Source: Lichenihabitans psoromatis (lineage in GTDB: Bacteria > Pseudomonadota > Alphaproteobacteria > Rhizobiales > Beijerinckiaceae). From it: a stretch of DNA of 64,000 nt. How positions within the stretch are numbered: position 1 is the first letter of the stretch; every line of letters begins with the position of its first letter. Where the stretch lies: NCBI RefSeq assembly GCF_004323635.1, contig NZ_CP036515.1:372001-436000 (forward strand), in the 5' to 3' direction. Shown in pieces: positions 48,942-64,000 of this stretch. Made by a program: the position numbers and the translations under genes. The notes under the pieces were generated by a model. It worked only from the letters and a program-made list of their open reading frames with translations. It did not search any database and was not told the DNA's origin.

Positions 48942-49173
48942 CCAGCTCCCCGATGTGAGATAGGCCAGCGCCGCGAGCCATGCTGGCCGACCGCCGACGG
49001 AGTTTACGTTCGATCCGCAAACTACGCTTCTTGTCTGAAGAAGTCGCCTCGCTTGCCGCTCGGAGGTCGCAGATCGAATTGGTGCAGTGCCAAATCGAAT
49101 TCGGCTTGACGACCATCGCGCGCTGTGAAAATTTTTACAGCAGAAAAGAAATTTTACACGGGAGCATGATGGT
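48942..49173. other. Regulatory region before the SorC/EryD-like gene
   Basis: 232 bases. The right half is AT-rich and holds the palindrome listed at 49124-49139 plus a half-site, probably the autoregulatory and operon operator. Promoter elements for both divergent genes must lie here; no gene was recognised. Confidence 0.5.
49124..49159 (+). promoter_or_regulatory. Candidate SorC-family operator
   Basis: TGTGAAAATTTTTACA (49124-49139) is an almost perfect inverted repeat (TGTGAAA against TTTTACA). A second half-site AAATTTTACAC (49149-49159) lies 10 bases further. The pair stands 15-50 bases before the regulator's start in otherwise GC-rich DNA, as expected for an autoregulated polyol operon. 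Confidence 0.5.
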
Positions 49174-50151
49174 TTGGCCTTGGCCTGGAACATGTCGTCA
49201 ATCGAGGATGATGAAAGCTTGGCAACCCGCGCCGCCTGGCTTCATTTCATCGGCGGTTTGACGCAGGGCGAAGTCGCCACCCGCATGAACATACAAAGCG
49301 TCAAAGCCCATCGGCTCATCGCCCGCGCCAACCGCGACGGGTTGATCCGCGTGTTCATCGATGGCGAGGTGGCCGAATGTGTCGCACTCGAAGACAAGCT
49401 TCGGTCCCTGTATGGACTGGCGCTCTGCGAGGTTGCGCCGACCGTCGATCTCGATCCGTTGCCGCTCCGCTCGCTCGGCATGCTGGGCGCCCGCTTTCTC
49501 CGGGCGGCCCTGGAAAAGCGCGATGATCCGGTGATCGGCCTCGGACATGGGCGAACGCTGGCGGCCTGCATCAACCAATTGCCCCGCACCAAGGCCGGCG
49601 GCACGCGCTTTGTGTCGCTGCTCGGCGGGTTTACGCGAAAATTCGAGGCGAACCCCTTCGACGTCATCAATCGCGTCGCGGAACGCACCGACGCCGAGAC
49701 CTACGTGATGCCGTTGCCGTTCGTGCTGAACTCAGCCGAGGATCGGGCCATCCTCATGGCGCAAAAAGGCATTGAAGCGGTGTTCGACCTCGCGCGCGAG
49801 GCGTCGCTGAAATTTGTCGGCATCGGCACGACGGACGGCGGCGATGCATCGCTGACGGCCTCAGGCATGATCGAGCGCTGCGAGATGACCGCCATCAAGC
49901 AGGCCGGCGCCAGAGGTGAAATTCTTGGCCATTTCTTCGACGATCGGGGCAAGCGGGTCGAGACGGATCTGTCAGCCCGGACCATGTCGCTGTCGTTCGA
50001 GGATCTTGCGCGCGGCAAATTGGTCGCGGTGGCGGGGGGACAGGCCAAACCGGCCGCGATCCGCGCCATTCTGGCCAGTGGGCTGCTGCATGGCCTTTTG
50101 ACCGACGAACGAACGGCGCGCAGCCTCGTCGATCTCTCGCCGGACCCGTAA
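49174..50151 (+). CDS. SorC-family sugar-binding transcriptional regulator, EryD-like
   Basis: A 325-residue regulator. The N-terminal HTH is LTQGEVATRMNIQSVKAHRL; the C-terminal sugar-binding domain (phosphosugar-sensing SorC fold) has VIGLGHGRTLAACIN, SLLGGFTRKFEANPFDVI, KFVGIGTTDGG and LLTDERTA. The sequence strongly resembles EryD, the erythritol-operon repressor, in wording and length (my recollection of the family, no alignment run). The start is TTG at 49174 with GGGAG nine bases ahead; an internal ATG at 49192 has only a weak site. It precedes, in the same direction, the transporter-kinase operon across 112 bases with an inverted-repeat structure. It probably releases the operon when a phosphorylated polyol binds. 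Confidence 0.85.
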   Translation: MALAWNMSSIEDDESLATRAAWLHFIGGLTQGEVATRMNIQSVKAHRLIARANRDGLIRVFIDGEVAECVALEDKLRSLYGLALCEVAPTVDLDPLPLRSLGMLGARFLRAALEKRDDPVIGLGHGRTLAACINQLPRTKAGGTRFVSLLGGFTRKFEANPFDVINRVAERTDAETYVMPLPFVLNSAEDRAILMAQKGIEAVFDLAREASLKFVGIGTTDGGDASLTASGMIERCEMTAIKQAGARGEILGHFFDDRGKRVETDLSARTMSLSFEDLARGKLVAVAGGQAKPAAIRAILASGLLHGLLTDERTARSLVDLSPDP

Positions 50152-50208
50152 GGGTTCGGTTGCTCGTCCGGACCGGTGGTCCGGGCAGTCGTCCGGGTCA
50201 ACGAACCC
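50152..50208. promoter_or_regulatory. Nested inverted repeats between regulator and operon
   Basis: An outer pair GGGTTCG (50152-50158) with CGAACCC (50202-50208) encloses an inner hairpin CCGGACC-GGT-GGTCCGG (50168-50184). It begins directly after the regulator stop codon. It could be a structured transcript element or an operator for the downstream genes; no T run follows, so it is not a normal terminator. Confidence 0.5.
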
Positions 50209-50263
50209 TCGACGATCAAAAACAAGAAACGATTCCAAGGGTCGAACCACAAGGACGGACACC

Positions 50264-51703
50264 ATGCACGATAAAGAGAAAGATCTATTCGAGGCCTTTA
50301 CCAAGAAGCGCCTCAGCCGCCGCGAATTGATGGACCGGACGGCGAAATTGGGGATCGGCGCTGCGGCAGCTCACTCGCTGCTCGGCCTCGCCTCGACCAA
50401 CGCGATGGCGGCCGATTTCGATTGGAAAGCCAATAAGGGCAAGACGATCCGGCTGCTGCTCAACAAACATCCCTATGCCGACGCCATGATCGCCGACATT
50501 GAATCCTTCAAGACATTGACCGGCATGAACGTCACCTACGACGTGTTCCCGGAAGACGTCTATTTCGACAAGGTGGTGGCGGCCCTCTCCTCGAAATCCG
50601 ACCAGTATGATGCGTTCATGACCGGCGCCTACCAGACCTGGACCTACGGCCCCGCCGGCTGGATCGAAGATCTGAAGCCCTATATCGAGAGTGCCGACAA
50701 GACCAACCCCAACTATAGGTGGGACGATGTGCTGCCGGGCCTCCGCGCCTCGACAGCCTGGAACGGCGTCCCCGGTGCGGCGCTCGGCTCGGCGGATGCC
50801 AAGCAATGGTGCATTCCGTGGGGCTACGAGATGAACAGCCTCACCTACAATAAGAAGATGTTCGACAAGCTCGGCATGAAGCCGCCGAACAACATGGCCG
50901 AACTGATGGACGGCGCCGCCAAATTCCAGAAGGACGCAGGCGGCCCCTATGGCGTAGGCGTGCGCGGATCGCGCTCCTGGGCCACCATCCATCCGGGTTT
51001 CCTCTCGGCCTATACGAATTTCGGCCAAAAGGATTTCACGGTCACGGACGGTAAGCTCAAGGCCGCCATGAACACCAAGGAGTCCAAGGCGTTCCATGCC
51101 GATTGGGTCAAGATGATCCAGGATTCCGGCCCCAAGAACTGGTCGACCTATACCTGGTATCAGGTCGGAACCGACCTCGGCGCAGGCGCGTCGGGCATGA
51201 TCTACGACGCCGACATCCTCGGTTATTTCATGAACGGCGGCGACAATAAGGAAGCCGGCAGCCTCGGCTTCCATGCCTTTGCGCCCAACCCGGCCGCCAA
51301 GGCGCCGACCCCGAATGTGTGGATCTGGTCCCTCGCCATGTCGAGCTTCGGCAAGCAGAAGGATGCCACCTGGGCGTTCATGCAATGGGCGTCCTCGGTC
51401 GAACACGGCATGTTCGGCGCGCGGAAGATGGACTTCGTGAACCCCGTCCGCGCATCGGTCGCGGCCGACGGCGAATGGCGCACCAAGATCAATAAGAGCT
51501 ATCCCGGCTACATCGACCAGCTCGATGCCTCAGCGCCGGGTGCCAAGATCTACTTCACGGCACAGCCCTTGTTCTCCGATCTCACCACCGAATGGGCCTC
51601 GACCCTGCAGCAGATGGTGTCGAAGGAGATCCCGGTCGACGAAGGCCTCGACAAGCTCGCGGCCAGCACCGACCAGCAACTGAAGGATGCCGGGCTCGGC
51701 TAA
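50264..51703 (+). CDS. Extracellular solute-binding protein (family 1) with Tat-like signal
   Basis: A 479-residue periplasmic binding protein. The N-terminus carries a twin-arginine-type signal (KKRLSRRELMDRTAKLGIGA, hydrophobic, then NAMAADF), so it is probably folded before export. The body follows the family-1 binding fold: IRLLLNKHPYADAMIADIES, KVVAALSSKSDQYDAF, CIPWGYEMNSLTYNKKMFDK, and Trp-rich segments (WSTYTWYQVG) suited to stacking on a sugar or polyol. It starts the importer operon with two CUT1-type permeases and two ATPases, as in glycerol- or polyol-type transporters of rhizobia. The ligand cannot be told from sequence; a polyol is likely from context. Confidence 0.92.
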   Translation: MHDKEKDLFEAFTKKRLSRRELMDRTAKLGIGAAAAHSLLGLASTNAMAADFDWKANKGKTIRLLLNKHPYADAMIADIESFKTLTGMNVTYDVFPEDVYFDKVVAALSSKSDQYDAFMTGAYQTWTYGPAGWIEDLKPYIESADKTNPNYRWDDVLPGLRASTAWNGVPGAALGSADAKQWCIPWGYEMNSLTYNKKMFDKLGMKPPNNMAELMDGAAKFQKDAGGPYGVGVRGSRSWATIHPGFLSAYTNFGQKDFTVTDGKLKAAMNTKESKAFHADWVKMIQDSGPKNWSTYTWYQVGTDLGAGASGMIYDADILGYFMNGGDNKEAGSLGFHAFAPNPAAKAPTPNVWIWSLAMSSFGKQKDATWAFMQWASSVEHGMFGARKMDFVNPVRASVAADGEWRTKINKSYPGYIDQLDASAPGAKIYFTAQPLFSDLTTEWASTLQQMVSKEIPVDEGLDKLAASTDQQLKDAGLG

Positions 51704-51724
51704 GCCGGAAAGCTCCATGATCGA

Positions 51725-51751
51725 GAACGAGGGGACGCCGTCCCCTCGTTC
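51725..51751 (+). repeat. Hairpin 1 after the binding-protein gene
   Basis: GAACGAGGGGAC (51725-51736) pairs perfectly with GTCCCCTCGTTC (51740-51751) around GCC. No T run follows. It probably protects the binding-protein mRNA end or reduces downstream transcription. Confidence 0.65.
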
Positions 51752-51795
51752 CGACACTGCTCCGGGTCGGTCGCATGTGCCGCTCCTTCGACGTT

Positions 51796-51821
51796 GGTCG
51801 GCTGCGCTGAAGCAGCCGACC
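51796..51821 (+). repeat. Hairpin 2 after the binding-protein gene
   Basis: GGTCGGCTGC (51796-51805) pairs with GCAGCCGACC (51812-51821) around a 6-base loop. Together with hairpin 1 it makes a two-hairpin spacer before the first permease gene. Confidence 0.6.
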
Positions 51822-51853
51822 GCGACGCTTCGTTCATTCGCCAAGGACCCGCC

Positions 51854-52783
51854 ATGTCCACGCTCGCCGAAACCGCGCCGCCGCGCCGCAAGGGCTCCTC
51901 GCCCGCGTTCCGGCGCGCCCTTCCCTACCTGCTCAGTATGCCGGCGTTGCTCGTCTGCGTGGCCGTGCTCGTCCCCTTCGTGACGGCTGTCTATTATTCG
52001 ATGCTGCGATACAGGCTGAACCTGCCGAGCATGAAGGGCTTCATCTGGTTCGGCAATTACATCGGCTTCCTCGGCGATAGCGAGTTTTGGAACACTGTCT
52101 ATGTGTCGCTCGCCTACACGGTGCTGACCGTGGTGGTGGAGCTCCTGCTCGGCCTTGGCATCGCGTTGCTGCTCCGCAAACAAAGCCGCATCAACAACTT
52201 CATCTCGATCATGCTGCTGCTTCCGCTGATGACGGCGCCCGCCATCGCGGCGCTGATGTGGAAGCTCATGACCAACCCGAATTTCGGAGTCTTGTCCTAT
52301 CTGGTCAGCCTCGTCGGCCTGAGTGACTTCCGCTGGGCCTCGAGCCCGACGACGGCGCTCTTCACCGTCGTGCTTGTCGATACCTGGGTCTACACCCCAT
52401 TCATCATGATCCTGTTGCTGGCGGGCCTACGCTCGCTGCCGCCGCAGCCGTTCGAGGCCGCGGCGCTCGACGGTGTACCGACCAGCTTTGTGTTTTTTCG
52501 CATCACGCTGCCGATGCTAACCCCCTACATCATCACGGCGGTGCTGTTCCGGCTTCTCGACAGCATCCAGCAATTCGACATCATCTATGCCATGACGCAA
52601 GGCGGCCCAGGCAATCGGCTGATGGTCTTCCAAGTCGAGTCCTACCTGCAGTTCTTCCAATATACGAACGTCGGCAAATCGGCCGCGATGCTGATGATCC
52701 TGTGGGCCATCACCTATTTCCTGTCGAACGTCTTCATCAAGAACTGGCTGAAACTGCGCGAACGCGCTCGCGGCCACGCGTAA
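51854..52783 (+). CDS. ABC importer permease 1 (MalF-like)
   Basis: A 309-residue inner-membrane permease of the BPD_transp_1 type with about six transmembrane helices (first near residues 23-45). The EAA loop that docks on the ATPase is EAAALDGVPTSFVFFRITLP, followed by LTPYIITAVLFRLLDSIQQF. It forms the heterodimeric channel with permease 2. The start at 51854 has AAGGA seven bases before the ATG. The gene is separated from the binding-protein gene by 150 bases with two hairpins, and from permease 2 by 14 bases. Confidence 0.93.
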   Translation: MSTLAETAPPRRKGSSPAFRRALPYLLSMPALLVCVAVLVPFVTAVYYSMLRYRLNLPSMKGFIWFGNYIGFLGDSEFWNTVYVSLAYTVLTVVVELLLGLGIALLLRKQSRINNFISIMLLLPLMTAPAIAALMWKLMTNPNFGVLSYLVSLVGLSDFRWASSPTTALFTVVLVDTWVYTPFIMILLLAGLRSLPPQPFEAAALDGVPTSFVFFRITLPMLTPYIITAVLFRLLDSIQQFDIIYAMTQGGPGNRLMVFQVESYLQFFQYTNVGKSAAMLMILWAITYFLSNVFIKNWLKLRERARGHA

Positions 52784-52797
52784 GGGAGGCAAAACCT

Positions 52798-53655
52798 ATG
52801 GATCACTCATCGCCTCTCGTCCGCGTGCTCAAGAGCATCGCCCTGACTTTGATCGTGCTGTTCTTCATGTTTCCGATCGTCTGGATCTTCTTGATGTCGT
52901 TCCAGAACAACGACACGATCCTGCGTATTCCGCCGAGCCTCTTCTTCCAGCCGACGCTCGGCAATTACACCGCGCTGATCTCGGGCAAGCTGCAAAGCAG
53001 CGCCGGCACGCTCGACATTCCGTTCATGCATAATCTCCTCAACAGCGTGATCCTCTCGACCGTCTCGGTCGGCATCGCTTTGGTGCTGGGCGTGCCGGCC
53101 GCCTATGCGTTCGCGCGGTTCAAATTCATCGGCAAGGAAGATATCGCCTTCACGCTGCTGTCGTTCCGCTTCGCGCCGCCGCTTCTCGTGCTGCTGCCGC
53201 TCTCCCTGTATTTTCAGGAGATCCACCTCAGCGACACCTATATCGGTCTGATTTGGGTTTATCAGTTGATCGCTCTGCCGCTGATCCTTTGGATCGTGCG
53301 GGGCTATTTCGAAGATATCAGCCCCGATATCGAAAGTGCCTATCGCGTGTCCGGTCATAATTGGTGGCAGGCTCTGACCAAGATCGCGATCCCGCTCGCC
53401 GGCCCCGGCATCGCGGCGGCTGGGCTGCTGTCTTTCATCTTCTGTTGGAACAACTTTGTGTTCGCGCTGATCTTGGCCTCGGCCGACAAGCAGCCCGTCA
53501 CGGTGGGAGCGCTCGCCTTCGTGACCGCATCCGGCATTCAATATGGACAGATCGCGGCCGCCATCGTGCTCTCGGTCACGCCGACGTTGCTGCTGGCTCT
53601 CTACGCTCAGCGCTATCTCGTCGAAGGCTTGTCGCTCGGCGCGGTGAAAGGTTGA
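52798..53655 (+). CDS. ABC importer permease 2 (MalG-like)
   Basis: A 285-residue inner-membrane permease with about six helices (IALTLIVLFFMFPIVWIFLM first) and an EAA loop variant, ESAYRVSGHNWWQALTKIAI-PLAGPG, where Ser replaces the first Ala. RFAPPLLVLLPLSLYFQEIH and the C-terminal ALYAQRYLVEGLSLGAVKG are typical of the MalG side. The ribosome-binding site is GGGAGG, about seven bases ahead of 52798. Two bases separate its stop from the first ATPase gene, so the subunits are made together. Confidence 0.92.
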   Translation: MDHSSPLVRVLKSIALTLIVLFFMFPIVWIFLMSFQNNDTILRIPPSLFFQPTLGNYTALISGKLQSSAGTLDIPFMHNLLNSVILSTVSVGIALVLGVPAAYAFARFKFIGKEDIAFTLLSFRFAPPLLVLLPLSLYFQEIHLSDTYIGLIWVYQLIALPLILWIVRGYFEDISPDIESAYRVSGHNWWQALTKIAIPLAGPGIAAAGLLSFIFCWNNFVFALILASADKQPVTVGALAFVTASGIQYGQIAAAIVLSVTPTLLLALYAQRYLVEGLSLGAVKG

Positions 53656-53657
53656 CC

Positions 53658-54779
53658 ATGGCCCAGCTCGAACTCTCAGGCCTCACCAAGACGTTCAAGA
53701 CCGGCACAGCGGTCGATGCGGTCGCGCTCAGGGTGGATCGCGGCGAGATCGTCGCGATTTTCGGCCCCTCCGGGGCCGGCAAGACGGTTCTGCTCCGTCT
53801 GATCGCCGGCATCGAAGAGCCGGATGGCGGATCGGTTCATATCGCCGGGCGCGATGTGACGACCGACAGCCCGGAAGCGCGCGGCATCGGCATGGCGTTT
53901 CAGAATTTCGCGCTGTTCCCGCATATGTCGGCTTACGCCAATGTCGCGTCGGGCCTCACCGCGACCGACACGCCGAAAGATCAGATCTATACGCGCGTCC
54001 AGGCCATCGCCAAGATGCTCAAGATCGACCATGTGCTCGGCCACAGCCCGCGCGAGCTATCGAACGGCCAGAAGCAGCGCACCGCCTTGGCGCGCGCCCT
54101 CGTGGCCGAACCCGAACTGCTGCTGCTCGACGATCCGTTGCGGAACGTCGACGCCAAGCTGCGCTACGAAATGCGCCTCGAATTACCCAACCTGCTGCGC
54201 CGCTACAACGCGACCGCGCTCTATGTGACGCAGGACTATAAGGAGGCGATGGCGCTGGCCGACCGAATCGTCGTGATGCTGAACGGCAAAGTCGCTCAGA
54301 TCGCTGATTCGGAAGAGGTCTACAACGCCCCGGCCAGCGTCGAGATCGCGCGATTGTTCGGTGATCCGACCATCAACCTGCTCCCCTGCGAGCCGACCCG
54401 CAACGGAGCCGGCCTGACGGTCACGATCGCCAACACGCGCGTGCACATCGGCGACGGCTTCGACATGAAACCGGGGCAAGCCTGCATCTTGGGGATGCGG
54501 CCGGAGGATCTCGTGTTGCACGATGGCGCGGCCGATGACGCGATCCCAGTCGACGTTCTGGCGGTCACGCCGCTCAACGAGCGTTACGTGTTTCTCGTCA
54601 AAACGCTCGATGGCCGCGAATTGCTCGCCTCGTCGGGAGACCCTGCCAGCGCCGACCGCGCCCATGGTCGTGCCTATCTGACGATCGACCCCACGGCCGT
54701 CCTGCTGTTCGACGGCGCCAGCGGCACTCGCATGGCTCGCACAACGCCGACCGCCGCAACGGCCGGGAGGCTCCGATGA
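53658..54779 (+). CDS. ABC importer ATPase A, with substituted catalytic residues
   Basis: A 373-residue ATPase of the MalK/UgpC type with a C-terminal TOBE-like regulatory part. Walker A GPSGAGKT (residues 36-43) and Q82 in AFQNFALFP are intact. The signature is LSNGQ (134-138), Gly replaced by Asn at the third position. Walker B reads LLLLDDP, where the catalytic Glu is Asp (D159), and the H-loop reads VTQDYKEA (Q192 instead of His). Asp can sometimes substitute; loss of the His usually lowers ATPase activity. The partner ATPase B keeps both, so the pair makes one weak and one strong site. It overlaps ATPase B by ATGA. Confidence 0.92.
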   Translation: MAQLELSGLTKTFKTGTAVDAVALRVDRGEIVAIFGPSGAGKTVLLRLIAGIEEPDGGSVHIAGRDVTTDSPEARGIGMAFQNFALFPHMSAYANVASGLTATDTPKDQIYTRVQAIAKMLKIDHVLGHSPRELSNGQKQRTALARALVAEPELLLLDDPLRNVDAKLRYEMRLELPNLLRRYNATALYVTQDYKEAMALADRIVVMLNGKVAQIADSEEVYNAPASVEIARLFGDPTINLLPCEPTRNGAGLTVTIANTRVHIGDGFDMKPGQACILGMRPEDLVLHDGAADDAIPVDVLAVTPLNERYVFLVKTLDGRELLASSGDPASADRAHGRAYLTIDPTAVLLFDGASGTRMARTTPTAATAGRLR

Positions 54780-55903
54780 CCGATACCGCCCTGGCTCTGA
54801 CCGGCGTCAACAAGCTTTATCACCGGCGCGGCAAGGGGCCGGTTCACGCTGTTCGCCAACTCGACATGGATATCGCCAAAGGCGAGATTGTGGCCCTGCT
54901 TGGCTCGTCCGGCTGCGGCAAAACCTCGACGTTGCGCATGGTGGCGGGTTTCGAGGAGGTCTCGTCCGGCACAATCACCCTGGCGGGCCGGTCGATCAAT
55001 GCGTTGCCGCCAGCCAAGCGCAACGTCGCCATGGCGTTCGAGGGCTACTCGCTTTATCCGCCACTGACGGTGCGAGAGAACATCGCCTTCGCGCTGAAGA
55101 GCGCCAAGGTCTCGCGCGACGAAACCGATAAGCGCGTGGCTGAGATTGCGGCCCTGGTCGAGATCGAGTCGATTCTCGATCGCTACCCATCGTCGATCTC
55201 GGGGGGGCAACAACAACGTGCCTCGCTGGCGCGCGCGCTGGTCCGCAAGGCCGATCTCTACCTGCTCGACGAGCCCATGGGACAACTCGAGCCACAGTTG
55301 CGATCGGTTTTGCGCGGCCGCATCAAGAGCCTGCTGAACCAGAACGGGATGACCGCCATCTTCGTGACCCACGACCAGACCGAGGCCAATGCGCTGGCCG
55401 ACCGGATCGCCGTCATGGAAGGCGGCATCCTGCAGCAATTCGCCAGCCAAAAGGATCTGAAGGATCGGCCCGCCAATCTGTTCGTCGCGACCTTCATCGG
55501 AGAACCACCGATGAACGTGTTCGACGCCCATGTGGTCGAGACCGGCGGCATCGCCCGGCTCGCGATCGAAAACGGCCCCGTGCTCGACTTCGGAGGCGTG
55601 GGCCTCACACCGGCGGTTCGCGCTGCGGTCGGCCATCGGACCAAAATCGTGGTCGGCGTCCGGCCCCACAAGGTGAAGATCGGCTCGGGAGCCTTTTCGG
55701 CCAAGATCGTTTCGAACCAGTGGCTCGGCGACCAGACGCATGTGGCGGCCGAGGTGGCCGGCAAGCTGCTCGTTTCGGTGACGAGCGAGCGGGTCAGGAC
55801 CAAGCTCGGCACCGTGACGCCGTTCGGCGTTGAGGCCGCCGACCTGCATCTCTTCGATCCAGGGACCGGCCAAGCGCTGGCGCATGGGATGACGCCGGCA
55901 TGA
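54776..55903 (+). CDS. ABC importer ATPase B
   Basis: A 375-residue MalK-type ATPase. Walker A GSSGCGKT (residues 43-50), canonical signature ISGGQQQR (141-148), Walker B LYLLDEPMGQLE with the catalytic Glu (E166), and H199 in FVTHDQTEA. The Q-loop residue is Glu (E89 in MAFEGYSLYP), and the D-loop Asp is Glu (GQLEPQ). The C-terminal TOBE-like region (VVGVRPHKVKIG) is present. With ATPase A it must form a heterodimer, unlike the homodimer of most CUT1 importers. Its start overlaps the ATPase A stop and its stop overlaps the EryA-like start, both as ATGA. Confidence 0.92.
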   Translation: MTDTALALTGVNKLYHRRGKGPVHAVRQLDMDIAKGEIVALLGSSGCGKTSTLRMVAGFEEVSSGTITLAGRSINALPPAKRNVAMAFEGYSLYPPLTVRENIAFALKSAKVSRDETDKRVAEIAALVEIESILDRYPSSISGGQQQRASLARALVRKADLYLLDEPMGQLEPQLRSVLRGRIKSLLNQNGMTAIFVTHDQTEANALADRIAVMEGGILQQFASQKDLKDRPANLFVATFIGEPPMNVFDAHVVETGGIARLAIENGPVLDFGGVGLTPAVRAAVGHRTKIVVGVRPHKVKIGSGAFSAKIVSNQWLGDQTHVAAEVAGKLLVSVTSERVRTKLGTVTPFGVEAADLHLFDPGTGQALAHGMTPA

Positions 55904-57468
55904 TCCGTGATCTCCTGATCGGGATCGATGCCGGCACCTCCGTCATCAAGTCGGTCGCGTTCACGCGACGGGGCGAGCAGATCGCCTGTTTCGCGCTGCC
56001 CAACACATACGAGAGCATCGACGGCGTTGGGGCCGAGCAGGACATGGCCCGCACGTGGAGCGACACCGCCGCGACGCTGCGGGGGCTGGCCGGGCTGGTG
56101 CCCGATCTCGAGCGCCGCACGGCCGCCATCGCGGTGACGGCGCAAGGAGATGGCACGTGGCTGATCGACGACGACGGACGGCCGGTCGCGCCCGCGTGGT
56201 TATGGCTCGATGCGCGAGCGGGCGACATCGCCCAGACGATCCGGGATGCGCCAGAGGGTCGTGCGATCTTCGAGCGGACCGGATCGGGCGTGAATGCCTG
56301 CCAGCAAGGCACCCAACTCCTGTGGCTGAAGCGCCACCGGCCCGATGTGGTGGCGCGCGCCGCGACAGCGCTGCATTGTAAGGACTGGCTCTACTTCAAG
56401 CTGACCGGCGTGCGGGCCTGCGATCCATCCGAAAGCATCTTCACCTACGGCAACATGCGGACCCGTGCCGTCGACCCCGCGGTGGTGGCAGCCCTCGGCT
56501 TGACCGACGAGGCACGGCTGATCCCGCCCATCGTCGATGGCATGCGCGAGGTCGGAGAACTGACCGACGTCGCGGCGCGCGAGATCGGCTTCGAGCCCGG
56601 GCTGCCGATCGTGCTCGGCTATGTCGATGTCATCACGACCATTCTCGGCGCCGGCCTGTTCGATCCCGAGGCGCAAGCGGGCTGCACCGTCATCGGCTCG
56701 ACCGGCATGCACGCGCGGCTGGCATCCTCGATCGACGATGTCGTGCTCAACCCGGACTGCACCGGCTACACGATGGCGTTTCCGATCGCCGGAGCCTTCG
56801 CGCAACTGCAGTCCAACATGGCCTCGACCATCAACATTGACTGGTTGCTCGACCTCGCGCGCGGCGTTCTCAGCGACCATGATGTCTCGATCTCGCGGCG
56901 CGATCTTCTGGCCGGCGTCGATGCGCGCGTGCTCAGCGCCGAACCCGGAAGCCTGATCTTCCATCCCTACATCTCGGAAGCGGGGGAGCGCGGCCCGTTC
57001 GTCGACCCGACCGCACGGGCGCAATTCCTCGGCCTGTCGGTGCGGCACGGCTACAGCGACCTGATGCGTGCCGTCTTCGAGGGGCTCGCCTTCGCGGCGC
57101 GCGATTGCTACGCCGTAATGGGCGGCGTTCCGGCCGAAATCCGGGTGACCGGGGGCGCGGCGCGCAGCAAGGCCATGCGGACCATCATGGGCGGGGTGCT
57201 CGGCGCCCGGATCAGAACCAGCAGCCGCGAAGAAGCGGGCGCGGCCGGCGTCGCCATGATCGCGGCGGTCGCGCTCGGCTTCTACCCCGATCTGTCGGCC
57301 TGTGCGGAGGATTGGGTGCGCCCGCTGTTGCAACCCGCGCTCGACCCCGACCCGATCCTGGTCGACCGCTACGATCGCCTGTTCCCCGCCTATGTGGCGG
57401 GACGAAAGGCCAGCGCGCCCGTTTGGCATGCGCTGCACGAACAACGGAGAGAGCGTCATCATGGGTAA
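55900..57468 (+). CDS. eryA: FGGY-family polyol kinase, EryA (erythritol kinase)-like
   Basis: A 522-residue kinase. The N-terminal ATP/sugar motif is LIGIDAGTSVIKSVAF; others are TAQGDGTWLID, CQQGTQLLWLKRH, LHCKDWLYFKLTGVRACDPS, GYVDVITTILGAG, CTVIGSTGMHARL, NMASTINIDWLLDLA, PYISEAGERGPFVDP and the second FGGY motif RVTGGAARSKAMR. From memory these and the length fit erythritol kinase (EryA) much better than glycerol or xylulose kinases. It should phosphorylate a tetritol or similar polyol with ATP, trapping it. The symbol is used for the family, since the substrate has not been shown. Its stop lies 8 bases into the next gene. Confidence 0.75.
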   Translation: MIRDLLIGIDAGTSVIKSVAFTRRGEQIACFALPNTYESIDGVGAEQDMARTWSDTAATLRGLAGLVPDLERRTAAIAVTAQGDGTWLIDDDGRPVAPAWLWLDARAGDIAQTIRDAPEGRAIFERTGSGVNACQQGTQLLWLKRHRPDVVARAATALHCKDWLYFKLTGVRACDPSESIFTYGNMRTRAVDPAVVAALGLTDEARLIPPIVDGMREVGELTDVAAREIGFEPGLPIVLGYVDVITTILGAGLFDPEAQAGCTVIGSTGMHARLASSIDDVVLNPDCTGYTMAFPIAGAFAQLQSNMASTINIDWLLDLARGVLSDHDVSISRRDLLAGVDARVLSAEPGSLIFHPYISEAGERGPFVDPTARAQFLGLSVRHGYSDLMRAVFEGLAFAARDCYAVMGGVPAEIRVTGGAARSKAMRTIMGGVLGARIRTSSREEAGAAGVAMIAAVALGFYPDLSACAEDWVRPLLQPALDPDPILVDRYDRLFPAYVAGRKASAPVWHALHEQRRERHHG

Positions 57469-58501
57469 GGTCATCGCCATCGTGGGCGACCGTTTCATGC
57501 TGCCTTCGGTCTTCGCCGACAAGATCGTGGCGGCCTGCGGCAACGACCAGACGATCCGCACCCTCGAACAGCCCTGGCCGGACGTGCCGATGGAGCATGG
57601 CTATGCGGGCTCTGCGTTGAGCGGACTGAAGGAATATCTTGGCGACCCGGACGAGATCGTCGCGTTCGTCGGCGATGCCGAATTGTTCGTCACCCATCTG
57701 TCGCCCCTGTCGGGCGCCATGATGGATCGGATGCCGGCGCTGAAATTCGTCGCCGTGTCGCGCGGCGGTCCCGTCAACATCGACATGACGGCGGCCCGCG
57801 AGCGCGGCATCAAGGTGGTCAACACCCCCGGCCGCAACGCCAGCGCGGTCGCGGAATTCGCGATCGGCGCCATTCTGTCGGAAACCCGGATGATCCGCGC
57901 CGGGCATGAAGCGCTGCGCCAGGGTATTTGGCGCGGTGAACTCTACCGGGCCGACACGACCGGCCGGGAACTTAACGAGATGACGGTCGGCATCATCGGC
58001 TATGGCGCGATCGGCAGCCGCGTCGTCAAACTGCTGAAGGCCTTCGGATGCAAAATTCTGGTGGCCGATCCCTATGTGCAGATCAGTGCCGCCGACAAAG
58101 CCGATGGCGTCGAGCATGTCGGGCTCGAGACGTTGCTGGAGCAATCCGACGTCATCACGCTCCATTCGCGGGTCACGCCGGAAACGACGGGCTTTATCGG
58201 CCGCGATGCCTTCGCGCGGATGCGGCCCGGCACCATCTTCGTCAACACGGCGCGCGGCCCGATGGTCGATTACGACGCGCTCTACGATGTTTTGGCGAGC
58301 GGCCATCTGCGCGGCGCCATGCTGGAGACATTCGCGGTCGAGCCGGTGCCGCCCGATTGGCCGCTGCTCAAGCTGCCGAACGTCACGCTGACGCCGCATA
58401 TCGCGGGCGCCTCGGTCCGGACCGTGACTTATGCGGCCGAACAGGCCGCCGAGGATGTGCGACGCTATATCAAGGGCGAGCCGCTGCTCAACCTCTGCTA
58501 A
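57461..58501 (+). CDS. D-2-hydroxyacid-dehydrogenase-family protein (phosphoglycerate-dehydrogenase-like)
   Basis: A 346-residue NAD(P)-binding protein of the D-isomer-specific 2-hydroxyacid dehydrogenase family. The C-terminal Rossmann part has VGIIGYGAIGSRVVKLL, the catalytic Arg in FVNTARGPMVDYDAL, the Glu in LETFAVEPVP and the His in LTPHIAGAS. The N-terminal part (VAFVGDAELFVTHLSPLSG) is the substrate domain. It could reduce or oxidise an alpha-keto or hydroxy acid derived from the polyol; no such enzyme is part of the known erythritol operon, so its role is open. The ATG at 57461 overlaps the kinase stop by 8 bases with GGAGAGA upstream. Confidence 0.85.
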   Translation: MGKVIAIVGDRFMLPSVFADKIVAACGNDQTIRTLEQPWPDVPMEHGYAGSALSGLKEYLGDPDEIVAFVGDAELFVTHLSPLSGAMMDRMPALKFVAVSRGGPVNIDMTAARERGIKVVNTPGRNASAVAEFAIGAILSETRMIRAGHEALRQGIWRGELYRADTTGRELNEMTVGIIGYGAIGSRVVKLLKAFGCKILVADPYVQISAADKADGVEHVGLETLLEQSDVITLHSRVTPETTGFIGRDAFARMRPGTIFVNTARGPMVDYDALYDVLASGHLRGAMLETFAVEPVPPDWPLLKLPNVTLTPHIAGASVRTVTYAAEQAAEDVRRYIKGEPLLNLC

Positions 58502-58535
58502 CAGACGCGGCAACTTGGGTGAAGGATGGCGCCTC

Positions 58536-60038
58536 ATGGTGGATTACGGCACGATCGATCTCGCGATCATCGGTGGAGGCATCAACGGAGCCGGGATCGC
58601 GCGGGATGCGGCCGGCCGTGGCTTGAAGACCCTGCTGTGCGAGAAGGGCGATCTCGCCGAAGGCACCAGTTCGCGCTCCGGTAAGCTCGTCCACGGCGGC
58701 TTACGTTATCTCGAATATTACGAGTTCCGGCTGGTGCGCGAGGCGCTGATCGAACGGGAGGTGCTGATGCGCGCCGCGCCGCACATCATCTGGCCGATGC
58801 GCTTCGTGCTGCCCCATTCGCCCGAACAGCGCGCCGCCTGGATGGTTCGATTGGGGCTGTTTCTCTACGATCACCTCGGGGGCCGCAAACTGCTTCCCCC
58901 CTCGCGTCGCATCAATCTTCGGCGCGATCCGGAGGGGAAATCGATCAAGCCCGCCTACAAGACAGCTTTCGAATATTCCGATTGCTGGGTCGACGACGCG
59001 CGCCTTGTGATCCTCAACGCCCTCGACGCTAAGTTGCGCGGCGCGACAGTGCTGCCGCGAACGGCCGCCACTTCCGCACGGCGCATCGATGGTTTCTGGC
59101 AGATCGAGATGCGCGGGCAGGACGGCACGACCAGCACGGTCAAGGCGCGCGCCCTGATCAATGCGGCCGGCCCCTGGGTCGAGGATGTTCTTGGCCGCAT
59201 CGCAGGGCGTAACAGCCAGTATAAGGTTCGGCTCGTCAAAGGCAGCCATATCGTGGTGCCGAAATTCTGGGACGGGCCGCAGGCCTACCTGCTGCAGAAC
59301 GACGACAAGCGCGTGATTTTCGTAAACCCCTATGAGGGTGACCTCTGCCTCATCGGCACGACCGACATCCCCTATGAGGGTCGACCCGAAGACGTCGCGA
59401 TCGAGCTGAAGGAGATCGAGTATCTGCTGCGGGTCGTGAACCGCTACGCCGTGAAGCCGCTCACCAAGGCTGACATCCGCCACAGCTTTTCGGGCGTGCG
59501 TCCGCTCTACGACAATAACGCGGAAGCCAATGCATCGGCCGTGACGCGCGACTACGTGTTCGAAGTGGACGAGCCCGAGAACCAGGCGCCCATGCTGTCG
59601 GTCTTCGGCGGCAAGATCACGACATTTCGCAAACTCGCCGAACATGCGCTCGACAAACTCGCCACGACCTTCCCGGCCGCCGGGAAAGCCTGGACCGCGA
59701 AGGAAGCGCTGCCGGGCGGCGACATCAAAGATGCCAATTTCAACGCATTCCTTGCGACGCTGCAGGCCGAGACGCCCTGGCTGCCGCCCGCCTTGGCCGA
59801 ACATTACGCGCATCTTTACGGAACGCGGGCGCGCGAGTTGCTGACAGGCGCGACCAGGCTCAACGATCTCGGCCGGCACTTCGGCGGCCTGCTGTATCAG
59901 CGCGAAGCGGAATTCCTGCAGCGTACCGAATGGGCCAAGACATCGGCCGACATCCTGCAACGCCGCACCAAACACAGCCTGCATATGACGCCATCCGAGC
60001 GTCAAGACTTCGAACACTGGATGGATGCCGCCGCATGA
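58536..60038 (+). CDS. eryB: GlpD/EryB-type FAD-dependent polyol-phosphate dehydrogenase
   Basis: A 500-residue FAD enzyme. The FAD-binding motif LAIIGGGINGAGIARDAAGR is at the start, with TSSRSGKLVHGGLRYLEYYE and the C-terminal LSVFGGKITTFRKLAEHALD. This is the glycerol-3-phosphate dehydrogenase/EryB class that oxidises a polyol phosphate and passes electrons to quinone at the inner membrane. Beside an EryA-like kinase, oxidation of a tetritol phosphate to the ketose phosphate is the best guess, but GlpD on glycerol-3-phosphate remains possible. GAAGGA lies about ten bases before the ATG, and the stop overlaps the next ATG (ATGA). Confidence 0.75.
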   Translation: MVDYGTIDLAIIGGGINGAGIARDAAGRGLKTLLCEKGDLAEGTSSRSGKLVHGGLRYLEYYEFRLVREALIEREVLMRAAPHIIWPMRFVLPHSPEQRAAWMVRLGLFLYDHLGGRKLLPPSRRINLRRDPEGKSIKPAYKTAFEYSDCWVDDARLVILNALDAKLRGATVLPRTAATSARRIDGFWQIEMRGQDGTTSTVKARALINAAGPWVEDVLGRIAGRNSQYKVRLVKGSHIVVPKFWDGPQAYLLQNDDKRVIFVNPYEGDLCLIGTTDIPYEGRPEDVAIELKEIEYLLRVVNRYAVKPLTKADIRHSFSGVRPLYDNNAEANASAVTRDYVFEVDEPENQAPMLSVFGGKITTFRKLAEHALDKLATTFPAAGKAWTAKEALPGGDIKDANFNAFLATLQAETPWLPPALAEHYAHLYGTRARELLTGATRLNDLGRHFGGLLYQREAEFLQRTEWAKTSADILQRRTKHSLHMTPSERQDFEHWMDAAA

Positions 60039-61081
60039 TGCAGCTTCGCGAGACATCGCCCGAAAGCCTCGCCTTGGCGGCGCTCGCGGTCCGCGTCGGG
60101 TCCGATCCGTCGCTGGTTCAGGGTCCGGGGGGCAACGTCTCGATCAAGATCGACGGCGTTCTCTGGGTGAAAGCCTCCGGCACGTGGCTGGCCGAGGCTG
60201 AAACACGCGACATCATGGTGCCGGTCGCGCTCGAGCCGCTGCTCGACGCGTTGAAACGCAATGACCCGGCCTGTGAGACGAGCGTCGATTTCGTCCGGCA
60301 GGACCTCAACGACAACAAGCTTCGTCCCTCGATCGAGACGACCCTACACGCCGTGCTGCCGCAGCGGATCGTGGTTCACGTCCATTGCGTCGAGACACTC
60401 GCGCATGCGGTCCGCTCCGACGTGCGCGACCGCGTGGCGGCTCCGCTCGCGGGTCTGCCCTATGTGGTCGTGCCTTATGCGCGGCCGGGCGTGCCGCTTA
60501 CTCAGGCGATCGTCGCGGAACTGAAGCCGGACACCACCATCCTTGTGCTGGCAAACCACGGCCTCGTGGTGGCGGCCGACACCGTTGAGGAGGCCGATGC
60601 CCTCCTGACCGAGGTGGTGCGCCGCCTGCGCGTCCCGAAAAAGCCGGCGAGCCCCGCCGATGATGCGACGCTCGCGGCGCTGGCGGAGGGCACCGCCTAT
60701 GAGATCGCCGATGCGGCGCTGCATGGGCTCGGCGTGGAGGCGAGCGTGTGTCGCCTCGCGGCCGGCGGCTCGCTCTACCCCGATCATGTGATCTTTCTCG
60801 GACCCTCGATCATCACGTCACAGCCCGGCGAAAGCGTCGCCGAGGCTATCGCGCGCTCCGGCCGTACCAATCCGCCGATGCTGGTCGTACCCGGCGCGGG
60901 CGTGCTGTTCCGCAAGGACGCGACACCCGCCATGCGGGCGCTCGGCGGCTGCCTCGCCGACGTCATGTCGCGCCTGCCCGCCGACGCGCCGCTGGCCTAT
61001 CTGACCCATGACGACGAAGCCGCCCTGCTCGGCTGGGACGCGGAGAAATATCGTCAGGCGCTCGACCGGACACCGGCATGA
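60035..61081 (+). CDS. Class II aldolase/adducin-family protein, long form
   Basis: A 348-residue protein, longer than FucA or AraD (about 215-230). The N-terminal 230 residues form the class II aldolase domain: the phosphate/glycine segment GPGGNVSIKIDG, the catalytic Glu in SIETTLHAVL (E101), Zn ligands in VVHVHCVETL (H115, H117) and H175 in LVLANHGLVV. The last 115 residues (TSQPGESVAEAIARSG, VLFRKDATPAMRALGG) form an extra domain I do not recognise. It probably cleaves a ketose phosphate into DHAP and an aldehyde, or epimerises it. It overlaps eryB by ATGA and the next gene by ATGA, so it is part of the operon. Confidence 0.8.
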   Translation: MMQLRETSPESLALAALAVRVGSDPSLVQGPGGNVSIKIDGVLWVKASGTWLAEAETRDIMVPVALEPLLDALKRNDPACETSVDFVRQDLNDNKLRPSIETTLHAVLPQRIVVHVHCVETLAHAVRSDVRDRVAAPLAGLPYVVVPYARPGVPLTQAIVAELKPDTTILVLANHGLVVAADTVEEADALLTEVVRRLRVPKKPASPADDATLAALAEGTAYEIADAALHGLGVEASVCRLAAGGSLYPDHVIFLGPSIITSQPGESVAEAIARSGRTNPPMLVVPGAGVLFRKDATPAMRALGGCLADVMSRLPADAPLAYLTHDDEAALLGWDAEKYRQALDRTPA

Positions 61082-62373
61082 CGAACGCCGATCGGCCGGC
61101 CGACACTCTCGTCCTCGGCATTGATATCGGCACGTCGGGCGTCAGGATCGTCGCGATCGACGCCTCGGATCGTGTCGTGGCAAGCGCCGCCGTGCCGATG
61201 GCGCCCCCCGACCGAGTCGGGGCACGGATCACCCAGGACCCGGAGGTCTGGTGGACTGCGACCGAGACGGCATTGCACCAGATCCTCGGGACGATCGATA
61301 TCGCATGCGTGCGTGCCATCGCGGTTGACGGAACCTCCGGCACGGTGCTGGCGGTCGACGAGGCCGGTCAGCCGATCGGCAGGGCCAGCCTCTACAACGA
61401 TACGTGCCCGCCCGAGATCGTGGCCCGCATCGGCGGCGTGGCGCCCGACGGCAATGCCGCGCGGGGCGCGACCTCGGCGCTCGGCCGAGCCTTGGCGCTT
61501 CAGGATCAGCCCGGGACCGTTCGTATTCTGCACCAGGCCGATTGGATCGCGGCGCGGTTGACGGGGCGGTTCGGCACCTCCGACGAGAACAACGCCTTGA
61601 AGACCGGTTATGACCCGGTCGAGCGGTGCTGGCCGGACTGGATCGCCGCCACCGGTCTCCGGATCGGTCTGTTGCCGAAGGTTGTGGCGGCCGGAACGCC
61701 GATCGGCCCGATCGCGGCAGAGGCCGAAGCAGCCTTCGGGCTCGAACCGACGACCCTGGTCGTGGCCGGCACGACGGATGGCTGCGCGGCCTTTCTGGCG
61801 ACAGGGGCTACAGGTCTCGGCGAGGGCGTCACATCGCTCGGCTCGACGCTGGTCCTGAAGCTTCTCTGCGATGCCCCGATCTTCGCGCCTGCCTATGGCA
61901 TCTACAGCCACCGGATCGGCGACATGTGGCTTGCGGGCGGCGCCTCGAACAGCGGCGGAACGGCCCTGCTCGGCTTCTTCACGGCCGAGCGAATGCGCGC
62001 TCTCGAACCGGAGCTCGATGCCGACACGCCGACCGGCCTCGATTATTATCCCCTGCCCGGCCCCGGAGAACGATTCCCGATCAACGACCCGGCGCTGCCG
62101 TCTCGTTGCGAACCGCGCCCCGCGTCGGACGCGACCTTCTTCCAAGGGCTTCTCGAAGGCGTCGCGGCGGTCGAAGCGCTTGGCTATCGTCGGCTTGCCG
62201 AACTCGGCGGGCCGCCGCTCGTGTCGATCCGCACCGTCGGCGGCGGGGCCAACAATGCAGCGTGGTCGCGCATCCGATCCCGCCTGACGGGCGTTGCTTT
62301 GCTGCCCCCAGCGCATGCGGAGGCGGCCTGCGGCGCGGCATGGCTCGCCCGCCGCGGATTGAATACGGCCTGA
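61078..62373 (+). CDS. FGGY-family kinase, D-ribulokinase-like
   Basis: A 431-residue kinase. Motifs: LVLGIDIGTSGVRIVAID, AIAVDGTSGTVL, RILHQADWIAARLTGRF, TSDENNALKTGYDPVERCW, TLVVAGTTDGCAAFLATGA, VTSLGSTLVLKLL, GIYSHRIGDMWLAGGASNSG and YYPLPGPGERFPI, ending with TVGGGANNAAW. This set fits the plant/cyanobacterial-type D-ribulose kinases better than xylulokinase or ribulokinase AraB (remembered pattern, no search). It should phosphorylate a keto-sugar, a second ATP step besides EryA in this operon. It starts by ATGA overlap with the aldolase gene; 25 bases separate it from the HAD gene. Confidence 0.75.
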   Translation: MTNADRPADTLVLGIDIGTSGVRIVAIDASDRVVASAAVPMAPPDRVGARITQDPEVWWTATETALHQILGTIDIACVRAIAVDGTSGTVLAVDEAGQPIGRASLYNDTCPPEIVARIGGVAPDGNAARGATSALGRALALQDQPGTVRILHQADWIAARLTGRFGTSDENNALKTGYDPVERCWPDWIAATGLRIGLLPKVVAAGTPIGPIAAEAEAAFGLEPTTLVVAGTTDGCAAFLATGATGLGEGVTSLGSTLVLKLLCDAPIFAPAYGIYSHRIGDMWLAGGASNSGGTALLGFFTAERMRALEPELDADTPTGLDYYPLPGPGERFPINDPALPSRCEPRPASDATFFQGLLEGVAAVEALGYRRLAELGGPPLVSIRTVGGGANNAAWSRIRSRLTGVALLPPAHAEAACGAAWLARRGLNTA

Positions 62374-62398
62374 GACACGGCAAGAGGATCGAAACGGT

Positions 62399-63253
62399 AT
62401 GACGATGTCGACGTTCATCGATGGTCTCGACGAGATCATGACCCGCTTCGATGCTTTTCTGATCGACCAATATGGCGTCATGCATGATGGCAAGACGCCC
62501 TATCCAGGTGCGGTCGAGGCGATGTCGCGGCTGACGGCAGCTGGCAAGATCGTCATCGTGCTAACCAATTCGGGCAAACGCACCGGCCCCAACATGGCCC
62601 GCATCGAGGCGATCGGCTTTCCGCGATCGAGTTATTCGTCGCTGGTCAGTTCGGGTGAGGTCACGTGGCAGGGCTTGCGGACGGGAGCGTTCGGCGAGCC
62701 TTTCGAAGCCGGGTGCCGGGTCCACATCATTGGCAAACAGGGCGACGATTATGGCCTCGACGGCCTCGACCTGATTGTCGTGGCCGAACCCGAAAGCGCG
62801 GATTTCATCGTCATGGCGGGCAGCGACTGTCCCCGGACCAGCCTCGACCATTACAGCAACATGTTGGTAGCGGCGGCAGCGCGTCACGTCCCGGCGCTCT
62901 GCGCCAATCCCGATCGCATGATGCTGACGAGCGAGGGGCCGCAGCCCTCGTCCGGCGCCATCGCGGCAATCTACGAGACCCTTGGCGGCCGTGTAACCTA
63001 TGTCGGAAAGCCGTTCGGTGCGATTTATCGGCACGCCGCCAAGAGCGTCGGCAATGATCCGGCCCGCGTTCTCTGTATCGGTGATAGCCTTGAGCATGAC
63101 GTGCTGGGAGGTGAGAGCGCCGGGTTCAAGACTGCGCTGGTCCGAACCGGCCTTCTGCAAGACATCGACGATGCGACCTTACGCGACATGCTGGCGGCAA
63201 CCTCGCATAAGCCCACCTATGTGCTGCCTACCTTAAGTCTTACCTCACGATAG
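62399..63253 (+). CDS. HAD-superfamily hydrolase, class IIA
   Basis: A 284-residue phosphatase-like protein. Motif I is FLIDQYGVMHDG (nucleophile D23; the usual second acidic residue at +2 is Tyr25), and motif IV is CIGDSLEHDVLGG. The IIA cap (after GKIVIVLTNSGKRTG, motif II Ser/Thr) lies in the middle. The pattern fits the TIGR01459 class of HAD-IIA proteins. It may dephosphorylate a damaged or dead-end sugar phosphate from the operon (metabolite repair) or regulate flux. ATG 62399 with AAGAGGA about 13 bases ahead, or ATG 62405, is the start. It is the last gene of the operon; no terminator is clear. Confidence 0.8.
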   Translation: MTMSTFIDGLDEIMTRFDAFLIDQYGVMHDGKTPYPGAVEAMSRLTAAGKIVIVLTNSGKRTGPNMARIEAIGFPRSSYSSLVSSGEVTWQGLRTGAFGEPFEAGCRVHIIGKQGDDYGLDGLDLIVVAEPESADFIVMAGSDCPRTSLDHYSNMLVAAAARHVPALCANPDRMMLTSEGPQPSSGAIAAIYETLGGRVTYVGKPFGAIYRHAAKSVGNDPARVLCIGDSLEHDVLGGESAGFKTALVRTGLLQDIDDATLRDMLAATSHKPTYVLPTLSLTSR

Positions 63254-63441
63254 ACCCCTCCGGTCGGTCACGTCGGCGGCGGGATGTCGCGCAAGATGCG
63301 TGGACCTAAGCGGAGCGTCCTCGCGTTCGACATCTAGATTGGAATGGTTCGCAACAGCGGCCATTGCCCGACGCTAGCCCTTTCTTCTTGGGAATATGTC
63401 CCGAAGGCTTGCGCTCCCGCCGGTACACGACGAGGAACATC

Positions 63442-64000
63442 ATGAGTCTCGACGACGATACGCCGTTCGGCGTCACACGCCGGCAAGTGATCGAGGGTGG
63501 CGCGGCCTTTGCGGTCCTCGGTTTTGTCCGCCCCGGCTTCGCGGCCGAAGTGAACCCGGTGGCGCCTCCTGTTCTGCCGACAGACCCCGGTCTCTCAACG
63601 ATGGCTGTCCGGTTGACGGTCAATGGCAGCGACAAGGCCTTGAATCTCGATACGAGAACCACGCTTCTTGACGCGTTGCGCGAGCATCTCGGTTTGACCG
63701 GCTCGAAGAAGGGTTGCGATCACGGCCAGTGTGGCGCCTGCACGGTGCTGGTCAACGGACGACGGATCAACTCCTGCCTGAGCCTCGCGGCGATGCATGA
63801 GGACGATAAAATCACGACGATCGAGGGTTTCGCCAAGGGTGATGTGCTGCATCCGCTGCAAGCGGCCTTCGTCCATCACGACGGATTCCAATGCGGCTAT
63901 TGCACCCCAGGTCAGATCTGCTCTGCGGCCGGCATGTTGAGCGAGCATAAGGCCGGAATGCCGAGCGTCGTGACGGCCGATCTCACGCAGGATCCAGCAC
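63442..64000 (+). CDS. 2Fe-2S subunit of a molybdenum hydroxylase (PaoA/YagT-like; 3' end outside window)
   Basis: At least 186 residues, cut by the right edge. The N-terminus has a Tat signal ([20 protein letters not shown]), unlike most small hydroxylase subunits, so it is exported like PaoA/YagT of E. coli. The plant-type 2Fe-2S motif is [13 protein letters not shown] with C92, C97, C100 and C112; the second cluster begins CGYCTPGQ (C151, C154). The partner FAD and molybdopterin subunits should follow. It likely oxidises an aldehyde or purine; an aldehyde from the neighbouring operon is only a guess. GAGGA lies five bases before the ATG. 188 bases separate it from the HAD gene. Confidence 0.9.

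Follow-up and report, generated by a model that had tools for sequence, protein, structure and literature searches.

Polyol loci have been sorted into three groups, namely the Sinorhizobium meliloti type (group 1), the type of Brucella and Rhizobium leguminosarum (group 2) and the Bradyrhizobium type (group 3) (PMC3599248). The S. meliloti locus was described by Geddes, Hausner and Oresnik in 2013 as serving erythritol, adonitol (ribitol) and L-arabitol, and it contains eryABCDR, mptABCDE, lalA, rbtABC, fucA1, tpiB and rpiB; the same paper remarks that lalA and rbtBC sit together elsewhere in Mesorhizobium genomes (PMC3599248). An ery gene set has been named eryA, B, C, H and I (PMC10190533), and for Bradyrhizobium ORS278 the same predicted functions as those treated here, EryB apart, were tabulated in 2011 for BRADO4794-4804 (PMC3899966). 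In this work, we analysed a window of 64,000 nucleotides from Lichenihabitans psoromatis (contig NZ_CP036515.1, positions 372,001 to 436,000; contig coordinates are prefixed C1, all others are counted from the first letter of the window), in which twelve intact genes on the + strand, delimited by open reading frames and domain searches, form an operon at 49192-63253.

Our comparison indicates with high confidence that this operon belongs to the S. meliloti type of polyol locus already known, with erythritol, ribitol and L-arabitol as its substrate class. A role in the use of erythritol and pentitols is thus probable. The pSymB locus of S. meliloti Ak57 (L099) was used as yardstick, and all twelve operon proteins matched it in identical order, the best pieces being 42-84% identical. 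On Ak57 pSymB there are 17 matched genes: besides the counterparts of the twelve, these are EryC, RpiB, a DeoR regulator, a second triose-phosphate isomerase and a small aldolase resembling FucA; 14 of them are annotated, and the unannotated mptA, mptC and rbtC were matched in pieces. The same order is found in S. medicae (L004) and S. meliloti 4H41 (L013), within a compared stretch that stops short of the regulator. The window organism resembles the Ak57 locus also in having EryC, TpiB and RpiB close by, but it lacks fucA1 in the operon and its eryC-tpiB and rpiB are split off, with eryC-tpiB lying on the opposite strand beyond three aldehyde-oxidoreductase-like genes. An earlier note, made from this DNA alone, had suggested a possibly undescribed tetritol or pentitol route and a search for the same gene order in other genomes. 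The order was indeed found in Ak57, and the match to the published erythritol, adonitol and L-arabitol locus supports the pentitol part of the suggestion; the route itself is not new, as the same gene set is already published (PMC3599248, PMC3899966) and the window locus adds one genome to that type. Nothing about the locus is unusual except a few putative enzyme steps, those of RbtA, LalA, RbtB and RbtC.

The first gene (49192-50151) encodes an EryD-like, sugar-binding regulator of the SorC/DeoR type (PF04198, 210 bits), 57% identical to the Ak57 regulator and 52-56% to those of three loci of Rhizobium and Shinella (L100-L102), which are classical in that EryA, EryB, EryC, TpiB and RpiB matches stand in a row with no RbtA, LalA or RbtC match. 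It is followed by the genes of an ATP-binding cassette importer (identities here and below are to Ak57): an MptA-like polyol-binding protein (50264-51703; PF01547; 70%), the MptB-like (51854-52783; PF00528; 73%) and MptC-like permeases (52798-53655; PF00528; 84% over 174 amino acids), and the MptD-like (53658-54779; PF00005; 56%) and MptE-like ATPases (54776-55903; PF00005, TOBE_2; 58%). Next come the EryA-like polyol kinase of the FGGY family, or kinase 1 (55900-57468; 57%), a protein of the D-2-hydroxyacid dehydrogenase family, RbtA (57461-58501; PF02826/PF00389; 71%), and EryB, a GlpD-like polyol-phosphate dehydrogenase dependent on flavin adenine dinucleotide (58536-60038; 67%). The operon ends with LalA, of the class II aldolase family, with 348 residues and a C-terminal extension (60035-61081; PF00596; 54%), RbtB, a D-ribulokinase-like FGGY kinase, or kinase 2 (61078-62373; 52%), and RbtC, of the HAD-IIA family (62399-63253; TIGR01459, 223 bits against a cut-off of 103.75; 42% over 168 amino acids). 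We infer the names RbtA, LalA, RbtB and RbtC for the dehydrogenase, aldolase, second kinase and HAD protein from the order and number of the genes and from the remark on lalA-rbtBC (PMC3599248). Five of the 11 junctions are overlaps, of 4, 4, 8, 4 and 4 bases, and the other six are gaps of 2 to 150 bases. The listed genes do lie on one strand, as the earlier note stated, whereas its description of most of them as overlapping fits the six junctions between the first ATPase and kinase 2, of which five overlap, and not the operon as a whole.

The EryD-EryA-EryB core recognised in that note was confirmed by the matches to Ak57 and by trees of the EryA and EryB sequences. In a 29-row FGGY tree, which contained no glycerol kinase, kinase 1 fell in a 14-row group (100/100) together with kinases from the three classical loci and from loci of the S. 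meliloti type. In a 21-row tree to which Escherichia coli GlpK, XylB, RhaB, FucK and AraB were added, it was placed in a 9-row EryA group (100/100) apart from these five, while GlpK and XylB each paired with another kinase of the window genome (100/100 and 100/99, respectively); thus, kinase 1 does not fall with the glycerol or xylulose kinases, the placement that the note had named as refuting its reading. A tree of 27 rows separates the GlpD-like enzyme from the clade of housekeeping GlpD proteins (98/100) and sets it among the EryB rows, most branchings between which are unresolved; the second GlpD-like genes of L100, L101 and L102 lay far outside the EryB clade and were not counted as EryB. 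A GlpD-like enzyme beside an FGGY kinase could also be read as a glycerol operon, and the enzyme reaches 805 bits (cut-off 352) on the NCBIfam glycerol-3-phosphate dehydrogenase model PRK13369. However, the same model gives the classical EryB of L101 870 bits; the score therefore does not separate the two enzymes and is no evidence for glycerol, and the identity taken from it was dropped. Moreover, a separate GlpD is encoded elsewhere in the genome, at C1:1429240, as is a kinase grouping with GlpK, at C1:1420226. With the trees rejecting it, a glycerol operon is hardly credible. A further FGGY kinase adjoins a distant GlpD-like flavoprotein of 568 amino acids at C1:1987609-1990568; the two share roughly 30% identity with EryA and EryB, and similar pairs adjoin the classical ery loci of L100-L102.

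The window ends at C1:436000, shortly after the last stop codon of the operon (C1:435253), and no eryC, eryH or rpiB was present among the open reading frames of 46000-64000, in agreement with the earlier note. The genome carries these genes just past the window, which makes their absence an effect of the window edge. In the region C1:433000-449000 the operon is followed by three aldehyde-oxidoreductase-like genes and then by TpiB (EryH) at C1:439370-440146 (-), about 53-54% identical to S. meliloti, EryC at C1:440174-441133 (-), 63% identical, and RpiB (EryI) at about C1:441282-441749 (+), 69% identical; the initial genome-search matches for TpiB and EryC had been C1:439394-440134 and C1:440174-441088. 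They lie 4.1 to 6.5 kilobases past the last operon gene, Pfam agrees with their assignment, and all of these downstream genes are beyond position 64000, except for the beginning of the first oxidoreductase gene. It had been proposed that the aldolase and the second kinase, both of which were correctly recognised (PF00596 for the former and a D-ribulose kinase match of 309 bits for the latter), stand in for the isomerases in a new route. The isomerases are indeed outside both window and operon, but they are in the genome beside the operon and the gene set is one already published (PMC3599248, PMC3899966), and such a replacement is very improbable. The note had itself named as adverse the finding of eryC, eryH and rpiB just outside the window in the same unit; they are just outside, yet not in the same unit, lying 4.1 to 6.5 kilobases away, with EryC and TpiB on the opposite strand. 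The three intervening genes (63442-64000, continuing at C1:435442-439359) are PaoABC-like with scores below curated cut-offs. They are probably not part of the polyol system, since a PaoC homologue was present in none of the best 80 loci that an aldolase scan of the contigs of 484 relatives retained.

The position of EryC and TpiB also bears on the group to which the locus belongs. Group 3, with Bradyrhizobium ORS278 and BTAi1, Acidiphilium and Verminephrobacter, shares with the window EryA, EryB, EryD, MptABCDE, LalA and RbtABC in Table 2 of PMC3599248, and it is given there without EryC and TpiB, both of which the window genome has. One could suppose that the locus is likewise for pentitols only, erythritol not being a substrate and the nearby EryC, TpiB and RpiB belonging elsewhere, given that EryC and TpiB are encoded on the opposite strand, at least 4.1 kilobases off and behind the three aldehyde-oxidoreductase-like genes. 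The distribution of the genes was followed in 249 genomes of the order, taken as an identical set across searches, with only the best few candidates per genome scored (E-value limits of 1e-40 for LalA and RbtB, 1e-100 for EryA and 1e-60 for EryC). EryA was found in 26 and EryC in 21, with both in 20, and LalA in 29 and RbtB in 25, with both in 23. The 26 EryA genomes comprise 12 with EryC, LalA and RbtB (including the window genome), eight with EryC only, four with LalA and RbtB only and two with none of these, and LalA and RbtB occur without EryA in seven of the 249. The four genomes with LalA and RbtB but no EryC would suit a pentitol-only locus. On the other side, 20 of the 21 EryC genomes have EryA, and all three erythritol genes stand together beside the operon with clear identity to S. 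meliloti, which makes a pentitol-only locus rather improbable. With respect to the classical group 2, the window resembles L100-L102 in EryA (51-53% identical), in EryB (64-65%) and in the presence of EryC, TpiB and RpiB, but RbtA, LalA, RbtC and MptABC, all present in the window organism, have no match there. The distribution in the order fits the three published groups, some genomes being left over.

For the S. meliloti-type locus, the pathway would begin with import of erythritol, ribitol and L-arabitol by MptABCDE and phosphorylation of all three by EryA, by analogy with S. meliloti, for which transport by MptABCDE and use of EryA for the three polyols have been reported (PMC3599248). By the chemistry of GlpD and EryB, EryB would oxidise the phosphate ester next to the phosphate, giving a ketose-1-phosphate. 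The four-carbon product would then be converted by EryC, TpiB and RpiB to erythrose-4-phosphate, as in the erythritol pathway of Brucella, where EryB, EryC, TpiB and RpiB carry out these steps, while the five-carbon products would enter the lalA-rbtABC module. If EryA and EryB act at the same end of each molecule, ribitol should give D-ribulose-1-phosphate and L-arabitol L-xylulose-1-phosphate. This stereochemical reasoning takes the EryA product to be L-erythritol-4-phosphate and depends on it, whereas a table of PMC3245297 calls it D-erythritol-4-phosphate. RbtC would release D-ribulose from D-ribulose-1-phosphate and RbtB would phosphorylate it again, yielding D-ribulose-5-phosphate; L-xylulose-1-phosphate would be cleaved by LalA, a 4-epimerisation being less likely. 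These five-carbon steps, as drawn, are a tentative scheme that we consider somewhat more apt to need revision than to stand. A review gives FucI-FucK-FucA for D-ribulose-1-phosphate and lists rhaA, rhaB and rhaD in a figure legend covering the L-xylulose-1-phosphate pathway (PMC6443609). No assignment of the reactions of RbtA, LalA, RbtB or RbtC was found in the literature searched, most subscription journals being outside its scope.

The sequences themselves offer some guidance on these enzymes. RbtB matches the D-ribulose kinase SePSK (5htn) with 309 bits over nearly its full length, the best match outside SePSK/AtXK-1 reaching 69.5 bits, and it keeps five of six SePSK residues that act in catalysis or contact D-ribulose (D8, T11, S72, K163 and D221, with S222 replaced by G; numbering is our own; PMC4880283). 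Our best guess is that RbtB is a D-ribulokinase. In LalA, H115, H117, H175 and E101 are invariant in all 40 aligned homologues (40 of 79 usable sequences), and in an alignment with AraD, FucA and RhaD the three His and the Glu line up with the active-site positions of FucA and RhaD; a class II aldolase is the best guess for LalA.

Several points weigh against this reading of the locus and its enzymes. The Ak57 yardstick may itself not be intact, given the three unannotated genes matched in pieces, and the operon has no fucA1. An EryR (DeoR) match was absent from C1:433000-449000, the only part of the genome searched for it; in Table 2 of PMC3599248, EryR is likewise missing from the two Roseobacter members of group 1. 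At the limits used, LalA occurs without RbtB in six of 29 genomes and RbtB without LalA in two of 25. Although LalA has Glu as in FucA and RhaD, the RhaD-ADH homologue L051 has Asp, like the epimerase AraD, and because of this the Glu/Asp position does not settle the choice between an aldolase and an AraD-type epimerase. In the DxD of HAD motif I, the second Asp is the general acid/base. RbtC has DQYG instead of DxDG, without this second Asp, and its relatives share the change, with DQ[FYL]G at motif I in 69 of 70 pattern matches over 82 loci; at this position the best solved relative of RbtC, 6nq4, has Trp and pyridoxal phosphatase has Asp. The missing residue counts against RbtC being an ordinary phosphatase, and a HAD protein that dephosphorylates a ketose-1-phosphate despite the absence of the usual catalytic acid is our best guess. 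Finally, the route proposed above gives RbtA no role.

RbtA carries motifs of the 2-hydroxyacid dehydrogenases, NTARG in 63 of 65 homologues and TPHI in 64 of 65, and the known substrates of that family are mostly acids. Its occurrence follows that of the kinase: an EryA-like kinase is present in 57 of the best 80 loci (of 484 relatives), RbtA accompanies it in all 57, and the three classical ery loci have no RbtA match. Adding L099 and L149-L152 to the 80 gives 85 loci, which are counted as loci and not as independent events (L008 and L150, whose RbtB coordinates coincide, are apparently the same locus, and L099 and L013 are near copies). EryA is present in 62 of these, EryB in 56 of the 62 and EryC in 41, where the loci scored without EryC include L033, L046 and L151, each with less than 5 kilobases downstream. 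None of the six EryA loci without EryB shows EryC in view (Fisher p 0.0009, a value that ignores kinship and includes L046 and L151 among the six). This is suggestive, and no more, of EryB and EryC behaving as an erythritol module, RbtA being the sole dehydrogenase seen in the remaining pentitol operons. It is possible, though on balance doubtful, that RbtA and not EryB oxidises the pentitol phosphate and that EryB serves erythritol only, which is compatible with the identity of the locus and changes one step of the pathway. Of the six EryB-less genomes, G291 gave no match at 1e-60, and in G120 the sole GlpD belongs to the glp clade. However, the other four have a separate classical eryB-eryC locus and EryB could act there in trans, EryB stands without a visible EryC in 15 of the 62 loci, two of the six have a short downstream flank, and the conserved motifs of RbtA are those of a family that mostly uses acids. 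A variant in which the phosphate is moved may be put forward, although we regard it as unlikely: RbtA would oxidise the pentitol-1-phosphate made by EryA, RbtC, without the canonical acid/base Asp, would remove the phosphate, and RbtB would restore it on O-5, yielding ribulose-5-phosphate. The sequences provide testable predictions, among them an unusual active site in the HAD protein and a polyol pathway that includes a 2-hydroxyacid dehydrogenase.

Besides the constant company of rbtA and EryA, the comparison shows that lalA-rbtB-rbtC also occur as a separate unit. Among the best 80 loci (of 484 relatives), rbtB was found in 67 and rbtC in 66, the one locus with rbtB alone being L046, whose sequence stops within that gene; 11 of the 80 hold EryA and LalA without rbtB, and RbtB was found elsewhere in all nine such genomes examined. 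In several loci of Mesorhizobium and Aminobacter the triad is separate from the polyol operon, and it is also present on two Verrucomicrobia-labelled metagenome contigs (L029 and L048). In one Aminobacter locus (L098:13962-19467) it lies directly ahead of the L-rhamnose genes rhaI and rhaM and a FucA-like aldolase. In Aestuariivirga (L056 and L073), homologues of the three genes are accompanied by a SorC-type regulator and importer genes, and L056, which has no EryB match, also encodes a protein that, judged by eye, resembles glycerol-3-phosphate dehydrogenase dependent on nicotinamide adenine dinucleotide.

Upstream of the operon, a gene for a histidine-kinase-like protein, judged by eye, occupies 45954-49193 on the - strand and is divergent from the EryD gene. 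Its longest frame starts within the start codon of EryD, so that the two divergent genes have no space between them, and its true start may be further inside.

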